Assembly: GCA_026387455.1 (NCBI GenBank) | Contig: JAPLLR010000027.1 | Span: forward strand, 1-35,317 | Length of the DNA stretch: 35,317 nt | Source of the DNA: Candidatus Omnitrophota bacterium | GTDB lineage: Bacteria > Omnitrophota > Gorgyraeia > Gygaellales > Profunditerraquicolaceae | Direction: 5' to 3' | Shown: in pieces, positions 5,975-25,859 of the stretch | Layout: every line of letters begins with the position of its first letter | Numbering within the stretch: the stretch's first letter is position 1 | The notes under the pieces: generated by a model | Told to the model about the DNA's origin: nothing | The model's input: only the letters and a program-made list of their open reading frames with translations | Database searches by the model: none | Made by a program: the position numbers and the translations under genes

Positions 5975-6052
5975 TGCACCCGGCATTAGCCCCTTCCTTA
6001 AAAGGTATAGGAAGGGCTACCCCTCTGGGGTTATAGGATATGCCGGTGCGCA
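5975..6052 (+). repeat. Folded repeat copy A with one 45-bp unit, upstream of tRNA-Gly
   Basis: An outer stem pairs 5975-5987 (GTGCACCCGGCAT, one bulged C) with 6040-6051. Inside lies a 45-bp unit at 5989-6033 made of a hairpin (AGCCCCTTCCT pairing with AGGAAGGGCT, again one bulged C) and a small hairpin (ACCCC-TCT-GGGGT at 6019-6031). The layout matches copy B at 20617-20755. The outer stem differs from the other copies by paired substitutions (CGGCAT/ATGCCG here versus TGGCCT/AGGCCA), so pairing is conserved while sequence is not. No Shine-Dalgarno segment follows; instead the flank forms a perfect palindrome CGCATTAGGTAATGCG whose last three bases are the first bases of the tRNA. Confidence 0.85.
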
Positions 6053-6061
6053 TTAGGTAAT

Positions 6062-6132
6062 GCGAGAGTAGTTCAGTGGTAGAACATGTGCTTCCCAAGC
6101 ATAAAATGGGGGTTCGATTCCCCTCTCTCGCT
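6062..6132 (+). tRNA. tRNA-Gly, anticodon CCC
   Basis: A full cloverleaf can be drawn over 71 bases. The acceptor stem is GCGAGAG with CTCTCGC, the D arm is GTTCAGTGGTAGAAC, the anticodon arm is TGTGC-TTCCCAA-GCATA with anticodon CCC, the variable loop has four bases, and the T arm is GGGGG-TTCGATT-CCCCT. The discriminator base is T and CCA is not encoded. It reads GGG codons. The first three bases also belong to a palindrome formed with the tail of the upstream folded repeat, which could compete with folding of the acceptor stem in the precursor. Confidence 0.97.
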
Positions 6133-12516: not shown

Positions 12517-13029
12517 ATGCGTTTTAGCTTACGAAACTTGCTTTTGTGCGCACTGCTAGTGACTCTAGGGTGCGCACATTTTGTTTTTGCGCAAAGCGTC
12601 GTTTCTATGAAGGGCGAAGTTAATTCAGACAACATCAATTTGCGCGCTGATTCCACGCCAGTTTCGGAGGTGATTTGTACTGTAAGTAAGGGGACTAGGG
12701 TAGAAGTGGTCAGGGAGTATTATGACTGGTATAAAATTCGCCTGCCCAAATCCGCGCCCAGCTACATAAAAAAACGCTTTGTCGCCTGCCTTGATGAGGT
12801 GGCCCAGCCTGTCTGCTTTAACGCAAGAGTGATCAATAACCGGGTCAATGTCAGGGCTCGGCCTAATGAAAGCGCGCCGATTCTTGGGAAAGTGGATAGG
12901 ACTCAAAGCCTGGTAATCTTGTCAGAAGATAAAGGCTGGTATAAAATACAGCCAATTCCCAATAGCTACGCCTGGATTCATAAGAAATTTGTAAAGCAGG
13001 AAGCTTACCCCGGCTTATCCGAACCATAA
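12517..13029 (+). CDS. Exported protein with two bacterial SH3 domains
   Basis: The 170-residue protein begins with a signal peptide (RNLLLCALLVTLGCAHFVFAQ, cleavage near residue 26). Two SH3b-like repeats follow: about 34-90 (VNSDNINLRADST, VEVVREYYDWYKIRLP) and about 100-160 (NNRVNVRARPNESAPILGKV, DKGWYKIQPIPNSYAWIHKKF). Such domains commonly bind cell-wall peptides, and this protein contains no catalytic domain. A Cys sits in the signal region (LGC-AH), so lipidation is possible but signal peptidase I cleavage after AQ looks better. It follows the PVC signature gene by three bases; the window suggests an envelope-related operon with the SPOR gene. Confidence 0.85.
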   Translation: MRFSLRNLLLCALLVTLGCAHFVFAQSVVSMKGEVNSDNINLRADSTPVSEVICTVSKGTRVEVVREYYDWYKIRLPKSAPSYIKKRFVACLDEVAQPVCFNARVINNRVNVRARPNESAPILGKVDRTQSLVILSEDKGWYKIQPIPNSYAWIHKKFVKQEAYPGLSEP

Positions 13030-13034
13030 GGGAC

Positions 13035-13063
13035 GCACTTGGCAATCCTTTGTGCCAAGGTGC
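13035..13063. repeat. Hairpin with one bulged base between SH3 and M50 genes
   Basis: GCACTTGGCA at 13035-13044 pairs with TGCCAAGGTGC at 13053-13063, leaving one bulged G and an eight-base loop. There is no U-run after it on either strand, so it is not a standard terminator. It lies 37 bases before the M50 start and could act as a processing or translation-control element. The 70-base gap holds nothing else I recognise. Confidence 0.5.
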
Positions 13064-13099
13064 AATGAAGTCGGGGGTGAAGAGAAGGTTCAGTAATCC

Positions 13100-20149: not shown

Positions 20150-20615
20150 GCTGCAAAGATTCTTTAAGTTAATTTATCTAAAGCTTTTTCGGATAAATGA
20201 CACGCCGCAGAAAATCGCTTTAGGTTTTGGTTTGGGGGTATTTCTGGGAATTCTTCCCGGCACCGGACCCATTGCGGCCCTATGCTGCGCGTTTTTGTTC
20301 CGTCTTAATCGAGCCGCGGCATTTCTGGGCAGCTTGCTGACTAATACCTGGCTAAGCATTGTCACTTTTGTTCTTTCTGTCAAAGTCGGATCTTTTATGA
20401 TGAATATGGAGTGGCACAAGGTTTATCAGGGGTGGTTGGCAATCCTTAAAGATTTTCACTGGGCCAACTTGTTTAAGTTAAGCGTTCTGGAAATTGCATT
20501 TCCGGTGCTGTTGGGTTATTTTATAATTTCTTTGTGCGCGGGGATCCTGGGGTATATAATAAGCTTGATTGCAGTGATTCAGGTCAGAAAGTCAAAGGAA
20601 AAGAAGATTTGTTAA
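20127..20615 (+). CDS. DUF2062 membrane protein
   Basis: The 162-residue protein has a short basic N-terminus and about three to four membrane segments. The conserved block DTPQKIALGFGLGVFLGILP with GTGPIAALCCAFLFRLNRAA and TNTW marks the DUF2062 family, often linked to envelope or lipid-related genes, without known activity. The start lies 23 bases inside the acyl-CoA ligase gene. The gene is followed directly by folded repeat copy B. Confidence 0.85.
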   Translation: MRKKEGNKLQRFFKLIYLKLFRINDTPQKIALGFGLGVFLGILPGTGPIAALCCAFLFRLNRAAAFLGSLLTNTWLSIVTFVLSVKVGSFMMNMEWHKVYQGWLAILKDFHWANLFKLSVLEIAFPVLLGYFIISLCAGILGYIISLIAVIQVRKSKEKKIC

Positions 20616-20616
20616 T

Positions 20617-20755
20617 CACCTGGCCTTAGCCCCTTCCTTAGTCCCTTCCTTAAAAGGTATAGGAAGGACTACCCCTGTGGGGTTAATAGGTATAGGAATG
20701 GCTACCCCCGTGGGGTTAAAGGATAGGCCAGTGTTGCGCTTTCTGCGCAAGGAGG
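20617..20755 (+). repeat. Folded repeat copy B with nested 45-bp units and Shine-Dalgarno sequence
   Basis: The 49-bp base element (20617-20628 plus 20719-20755) matches copies C and D. It has an outer stem CACCTGGCCT with AGGCCAGTG, then hairpin TTGCGC-TTTCT-GCGCAA, then AAGGAGG. Between them lies a 90-bp insert after TTA. It is made of an outer 45-bp unit (20629-20640 plus 20686-20718) split by an inner 45-bp unit (20641-20685). Each unit ends in GGGGTTA, so TTA borders each insertion. The small hairpin differs from copies C and D by a C-G to G-C pair swap, keeping the stem. The AAGGAGG sits five bases before the ATG at 20761. Confidence 0.88.
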
Positions 20756-20760
20756 ATACG

Positions 20761-21249
20761 ATGGATTTTAATATGCCGGGGCCGAATAAAAGAGTGTGTG
20801 CGTATTTTATCGATGCGATAATAATTACAGCTATCGGGATAGTTGTATCATTAATGTTTTCCATGAATCTTTATTGGATAATTTATGTGCTATTGATCTT
20901 ATTTAAGGATAGTTTTAACGGACAGAGCTTTGGTAAATATTTAGTAGGAACGCAGATAGTTGATGAGAATAATTCTCCTGCTAGCATTTCCAAGGCGGCG
21001 ATCAGGAATATCTTTATGGCTATTCCGTTTTTTCCTATAATTGAGTATTTTGTTATGCTCAATGATAAGCAAGAAGGCAGGAGAATAGGGGATAGAGTGG
21101 TTAAAACCAGGGTTAACGATTTAAAGCCTGAGCTAAAAGATAGTATTTTTCTTTTGATTTCTCTTGTGCTGGTAGTGATTTACGTTGCAGTAGTTTTGGG
21201 CTATACTTATACTTTAATAAAGCTGGATCCGAGTTTAATTAAGCAATAG
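20761..21249 (+). CDS. RDD family membrane protein
   Basis: The protein has 162 residues when read from the ATG at 20761, five bases after the AAGGAGG of repeat copy B. An earlier in-frame ATG at 20677 would translate the repeat itself and is rejected. RDD family features are KRVCAYFIDAIIITAIGIVV, the middle block GQSFGKYLVGTQIVDEN, and NDKQEGRRIGDRVVKTRV; three to four hydrophobic segments are visible, with an extra one at the C-terminus. RDD proteins may be transporters or membrane scaffolds, and none is suggested here. Confidence 0.88.
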   Translation: MDFNMPGPNKRVCAYFIDAIIITAIGIVVSLMFSMNLYWIIYVLLILFKDSFNGQSFGKYLVGTQIVDENNSPASISKAAIRNIFMAIPFFPIIEYFVMLNDKQEGRRIGDRVVKTRVNDLKPELKDSIFLLISLVLVVIYVAVVLGYTYTLIKLDPSLIKQ

Positions 21250-25808: not shown

Positions 25809-25859
25809 CCCTCCTTCCGCAGAAAGCGGAACACTGGCCTATCCTATAAGGCCAGGTGT
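25809..25859 (-). repeat. Folded repeat copy C (no 45-bp unit) with Shine-Dalgarno sequence
   Basis: On the minus strand an outer stem ACACCTGGCCT pairs with AGGCCAGTGT (one bulged C), then TTCCGC-TTTCT-GCGGAA forms a second hairpin, and AAGGAGGG follows, placing GGAGG eight bases before the ATG of the lysine-rich gene. It is identical to copy D at 27320-27370 except for one base in the loop. At the loop TTA the longer copies A and B hold the 45-bp units, so this is the empty form. Confidence 0.88.

Follow-up and report, generated by a model that had tools for sequence, protein, structure and literature searches.

Double-hairpin elements (DHE), reportedly described from fungal mitochondria by Paquin et al. 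in 2000, resemble the elements considered here in having two adjacent hairpins, in spreading between genes and in inserting into one another, a likeness from which we claim no common descent. Two consecutive hairpins with conserved pairing are seen here as well; as opposed to the organellar DHE, these lie on a bacterial chromosome, keep one unpaired C without variation, land at set positions in loops, are flanked by TWA and include one type (H, below) that is linked to a Shine-Dalgarno sequence. Elements derived from IS200/IS605 (PATE) make no target duplication, their ends being cleaved at fixed sequences carried by the element itself. The flanks of the 45-bp unit described below (type U), whose ends were read from the sequence, covary as TTA/TTA or TAA/TAA, which favours duplication. 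Palindromic repeats are also found in the organelles of Volvox, where loops in the plastid carry TAAA/TTTA (PMC2670323).

REP/RAYT, RPE and BOX/RUP each match the elements here in part and fail in other respects. Rickettsia palindromic elements (RPE), of about 150 bp, insert in frame into protein genes (PMC10969869), as is seen here for rnhB, with 15 residues, and for an N-terminal extension of ruvB; U is 45 bp long and mostly intercistronic, and it is by their description that we set it apart from RPE. REP and REPIN sequences are dispersed, bulged extragenic hairpins (PMC8266576), and so are the present units, which differ in having 3-bp TWA flanks and systematic loop nesting. The GTAG/CGTC tag at the foot of the REP palindrome is absent from the units listed here (the foot of U is TTAG and that of H is ACAC/GTGT), and no RAYT lies beside any unit. 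The BOX, RUP and SPRITE repeats of pneumococcus are small, have inserted into each other and fold as RNA hairpins; RUP is 107 bp long and BOX in some cases more than 500 bp, both with IS-like terminal inverted repeats (PMC3049150). Nesting among these repeats is occasional and is not described as loop-directed, unlike the nesting seen here. The small dispersed repeats (SDR) of cyanobacteria, known to us from a citation alone, offer a further likeness in being mobile and very small (Elhai et al., 2008, cited in PMC3116915). We found no description of such elements in Omnitrophota in the literature, and in our judgement those presented below, very small mobile double hairpins, make up a new family that extends across this lineage, the closest described system being the organellar one.

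The window, that is, the whole stretch of 35,317 nt that was analysed, corresponds to contig C37 of the source genome (G000), a draft of 1.68 Mb made up of 72 contigs. Its features are as follows, H denoting the 49-bp host element, U the 45-bp unit and V a further type.

5976–6063, plus strand: copy A host, H type, GCAC-C-CGGCAT ... ATGCCG-GTGC, hairpin GCATTAGGTAATGC
5989–6033, plus strand: lone U in the loop of copy A; excising its 45 bp restores 10/10 pairs
12994–13078, minus strand: fifth element, a V-type unit (about 13021–13063) within the loop of an H host that has decayed
20616–20749, plus strand: copy B host, H type, stem TCAC-C-TGGCCT ... AGGCCA-GTGT, second hairpin TGCGCTTTCTGCGCA
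20629–20640, plus strand: outer U of copy B, left part, GCCCCTTCCTTA; pairs with 20686–20718 once the inner unit is excised
20641–20685, plus strand: inner U of copy B, AGTC/GACT stem variant, TTA on either side
20686–20718, plus strand: outer U of copy B, right part; joins 20629–20640 to give a 45-bp unit
25816–25859, minus strand: copy C, empty H, then AGGAGG; starts 2 nt past the upstream stop codon
27327–27370, minus strand: copy D, empty H, then AGGAGG and ATG

In copy B, 90 bp (20629–20718) follow the TTA at 20626–20628 and resolve into two 45-bp units, one U lying inside a second U and the latter within the loop of a third hairpin, that of H. Each of the two pairs with itself, the inner one as AGTC-C-CTTCCT/AGGAAG-GACT and the outer one as AGCC-C-CTTCC/GGAA-GGCT, and the order of arms is L L' R' R with matched variants. 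The upstream ORF stops at 20615, and AAGGAGG stands 3' of the second hairpin, followed by an ATG at 20761. The earlier note had placed these units, and that of copy A, exactly to the base. Once 45 bp are removed, the hairpin of the host forms again. Its statement that copies C and D match the empty sites of A and B exactly stands for B, with which D agrees to the letter (CCTTAAAGGATAGGCCAGTG), and falls for A, whose host stem is CGGCAT/ATGCCG as opposed to TGGCCT/AGGCCA, an identical structure with compensated changes. It had overlooked that the 49-bp host is itself dispersed and belongs to the same structural superfamily as U, that the V and W types enter the loop at another position and duplicate no 3 bp there, and that a V-type unit forms a fifth element (13078–12994, minus strand). 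For the gene after copy B, one orthologue is matched in a related genome (G026), 50% identical and preceded by a plain Shine-Dalgarno sequence and no element, which is weak evidence, the upstream neighbourhood looking different. The second hairpin of copy A (GCATTAGGTAATGC) runs into the beginning of a tRNA-Gly (6062–6132), and an H-like element at C14:34701–34765 (L071) has the same second hairpin overlapping a tRNA-like start.

The types U, H, V, W and Y follow a common plan, in which a first stem of 4 bp and then 6 bp, with an unpaired C between them in its 5' arm, closes a short loop, and a small second hairpin comes after it. The first loop has 8–10 nt (TAWAGGAT or TAAAAGGTAT), and the second hairpin, of about 5 bp, follows directly. 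U reads AGCC-C-CTTCCT/AGGAAG-GGCT plus ACCCC-NNT-GGGGT, a 42-bp double hairpin to which a 3-bp TWA is added, and H reads ACAC-C-TGGCCT/AGGCCA-GTGT plus TCCGC-TTTCT-GCGGA; V has GCACC-TTGGCA, W has GTACC-TTTGCC and Y, often antisense, has GCACC-CCAGC, the family size being about 42–45 bases. When 13 H, V, W and Y copies are aligned, 98% of cells are paired, stem 1 shows double changes at 9 of its 10 pairs, and the covariation score is reached by none of 500 shuffles and is lost when the partner is slid. In these types, sequence turns over while structure is kept. A search of 56 kb against Rfam 15 at the gathering threshold returned tRNAs and one cobalamin riboswitch only, with no match to the elements.

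The U core has 25 matches in the source genome, as opposed to none in a reversed-pattern control and none expected by chance (100 dinucleotide shuffles of the window), and the covariance model finds 99 matches there at E <= 1. Across the relative set, the model has matches in 36 of 58 genomes (98 in G025, 33 in G031, 30 in G026 and 26 in G020), these surveys being targeted searches and stretches whose counts fall short for H copies that are weak or much nested. The U core is seen otherwise only once among the relatives, in a genome of another taxonomic family (G047), with a unit in its own loop. It occurs in five of 84,980 species genomes scanned, all five of them Omnitrophota, and in none of the viral contigs searched. 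Copies in G025 (L115–L134) form tandem arrays with a 45-bp period or are enclosed by a palindrome, AACTTACG...CGTAAGTT, a hint of one further nesting level. Another arrangement is seen in G045, also of another family, where the leader of a gene for a cold-shock protein holds a tandem of three different double hairpins (L102 around 1400–1556).

As for placement, 21 of the 25 U copies sit within loops of H or U, and all 21 are oriented as their host; a rough binomial for at least 20 of 25 in loops, with loops estimated at 0.6% of intergenic DNA and possible co-movement of doubles ignored, gives 2e-40. Excision of 45 bp restores 9–10 of 10 host pairs at 13 sites (eight single-unit and five double hosts). 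The U hosts fall into at least six stem sequence classes, most of them also found empty, and their U inserts are nearly identical; had host and insert been duplicated together, the host stems would need to have been rewritten in compensated pairs. Inner U copies of the GTCC variant lie inside outer U units in six cases out of six, so that some doubles may stem from one 90-bp composite moved whole. V and W units nest as well, at the loop position between TAWA and GGAT, in five genomes (the source genome, G020, G025, L157 and L160). Filled, empty and nested sites are thus present genome-wide and in other genomes, as would be expected of the self-nesting miniature element that the earlier note had proposed, and we hold with good confidence that U is mobile and non-autonomous and that it prefers, in one orientation, the loops of superfamily members, itself included. 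Tandem slippage, which that note had named as the alternative and which yields head-to-tail copies only, is rejected as the main explanation, given the L L' R' R order, the matched arms and the solitary copies at unrelated sites, one of them in frame in rnhB. Tandem U pairs are found at L159 and C11.

The trinucleotides beside the 42-bp core, read by eye, are TTA/TTA in 27 cases, TAA/TAA in five, TAA/TTA in two, TTA/TAA in none and others in three (one of these CTA/CTA). The two flanks covary (Fisher p = 7.5e-5), and they do so at sites outside H hosts as well (p = 0.0047), which supports, in the broader form TWA, the 3-bp TTA duplication suggested previously. A fixed element end would not leave covarying flanks, as opposed to duplication of a TWA target or copying via 3 nt of microhomology; read in this way, the flanks support a putative 3-bp TWA target duplication by U. 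For V and W insertions, the shared flank is at most 1 nt, and no 3-bp duplication is seen.

Filled and empty states can be compared at a syntenic locus of G020 and the source genome, where H lies between two genes that we take, from our own reading of their proteins (80% and 90% identical), to be fabF and a radical SAM gene. H is empty in the former and filled with U in the latter, with differing stems, in a comparison that spans genera as opposed to strains or species within a genus. Insertions into genes are also seen. The RNase HII gene (rnhB) of L160 (CG08_land Omnitrophica) carries U in frame, which lengthens the protein at a single point by exactly 15 residues; the insert is missing from 30 orthologues, has TTA on both sides and lies outside any known double hairpin. 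In the source genome, a RuvB ORF (C11) is extended at its N-terminus by two tandem U-like units, antisense to ruvB.

As to mechanism, the fixed orientation in loops and the preference for loops point to single-stranded DNA. Hairpin loops extruded on such DNA would expose the TWA target, at which a trans-acting enzyme would cut and join; this enzyme-driven single-strand mechanism is the one that we favour, though as such we put it forward tentatively. An insert in the H loop would fold up locally and out of the way, which would make that loop safe to land in. It is possible, at somewhat short of an even chance, that a lineage-wide superfamily homes to the hairpin loops of its own members as designated landing sites, by means of an undescribed enzyme or of transposase-free template switching at replication. 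Searches for Y1, RT and DDE domains found no mobilising enzyme, and hence no matching transposase of the kind that the earlier note had thought worth seeking; the draft MAGs may lack such a gene. Over 58 genomes, counts of Y1 and RT genes do not track element number.

The main rival is template switching without any transposase, in which a nascent strand stalled at a hairpin (3' TTA/TAA) copies another unit and returns via the same trinucleotide. Such copying accounts for the equal flanks, the fixed orientation and the loop preference, and fits the absent Y1/RT correlation. Three bases of microhomology are little, however, and both the precise 45-bp insertion in rnhB, away from any known double hairpin, and the V-type insertions without shared trinucleotides are harder to explain by it, and we consider it unlikely.

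Bulged hairpins, directional insertion and a TTA target would also suit mobilisation of single-stranded hairpins in the manner of IS200/IS605 or TnpA_REP (HUH, Y1), with TTA as the cleavage and target sequence, and the source genome does hold one Y1_Tnp gene (C62:9403–9732). This lone, RAYT-like gene (L026 about 1337–2092, C62), however, is bordered by a 16-bp inverted repeat of its own, TTAGGGACACTTCCTA, with no unit alongside. The high-copy genomes G020 and G031 have no Y1_Tnp, the Spearman rho over 58 genomes is -0.02, and covarying TAA/TAA flanks favour a duplication, which the IS200/IS605-type family does not make; mobilisation of this kind is improbable. A MITE of the DDE type (IS5/Harbinger-like) that duplicates 3 bp (TWA) of its target has the covarying TWA flanks in its favour, an explanation that we find decidedly improbable. 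The flanks of U point to a duplication of fixed length (3-bp TWA) and those of V and W do not, there is no terminal inverted repeat shared with a transposase, and in place of true terminal inverted repeats one finds about 4 bp only (CCCC/GGGG), offset. In addition, loop orientation is non-random, PF13359 is found in none of 16 genomes tested, and PF01609 is found in three of the 16, with neither G020 nor G031 among them; most genomes with many copies lack the DDE domains searched for. RNA-mediated spread, in which units in sense mRNA leaders would reverse-integrate into RNA loops and then be reverse transcribed, fits the loop targeting and the sense orientation with the host H, and an RT-like ORF (L044 1607–2560, C22) lies directly upstream of an H element. 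RVT_1 is without a match in the high-copy G020, G025, G026, G027 and G031, however, and the ruvB units are antisense to their gene, so that spread by this route appears very improbable.

H itself has the look of a leader. About 40 of the 72 best H matches are in sense orientation and end in a Shine-Dalgarno sequence (AAGGAG(G) or close) 4–11 nt before a start codon. Of 46 H that have a start codon close by, 36 are preceded by a stop codon in the same direction no more than 200 nt away, in many cases at 0–5 nt. H precedes rpoA in G031 and the source genome and a cold-shock gene in G045 and the source genome, in both cases with genome-specific stems. H lies for the most part between the stop codon of one gene and the Shine-Dalgarno sequence of the next, and is probably a leader of long standing that undergoes concerted evolution, with U and V as newer riders in its loop. 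Regulation by CsrA through a GGA-bearing loop was rejected, PF02599 being without a match in 57 of the 58 genomes, the source genome included. In a second class of H, a run of A replaces the Shine-Dalgarno sequence (C27:8007, C64:14700, C15:24921, C56:9686 and 16576, C21:6027, C7:11305), and some of these elements adjoin an apparent T-tract terminator of a gene on the opposite strand. That H is merely a cis-regulatory 5' leader RNA, not mobile and expanded internally by slippage, is favoured by these Shine-Dalgarno ends and by its similar placement before rpoA and the radical SAM gene in two genera, but this covers H only, leaves the solitary, in-frame and loop-nested U, V and W unexplained, is contradicted for U by rnhB and, in its CsrA version, is excluded by the absence of PF02599 from the source genome, and is the least probable explanation of all.

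If loop homing is true, nesting would be the normal mode of spread of these elements and would do the host little harm, the landing site folding aside. At 42–45 bp, the units would rank with the smallest mobile elements that bacteria are known to have, and nature has supplied them with many sites of each kind, whether filled, empty or nested. As a bacterial counterpart of the organellar DHE, they could make the mode of spread of the latter testable. They also show how intercistronic leaders are remodelled, and that a 45-bp element can put 15 in-frame residues into a conserved enzyme.
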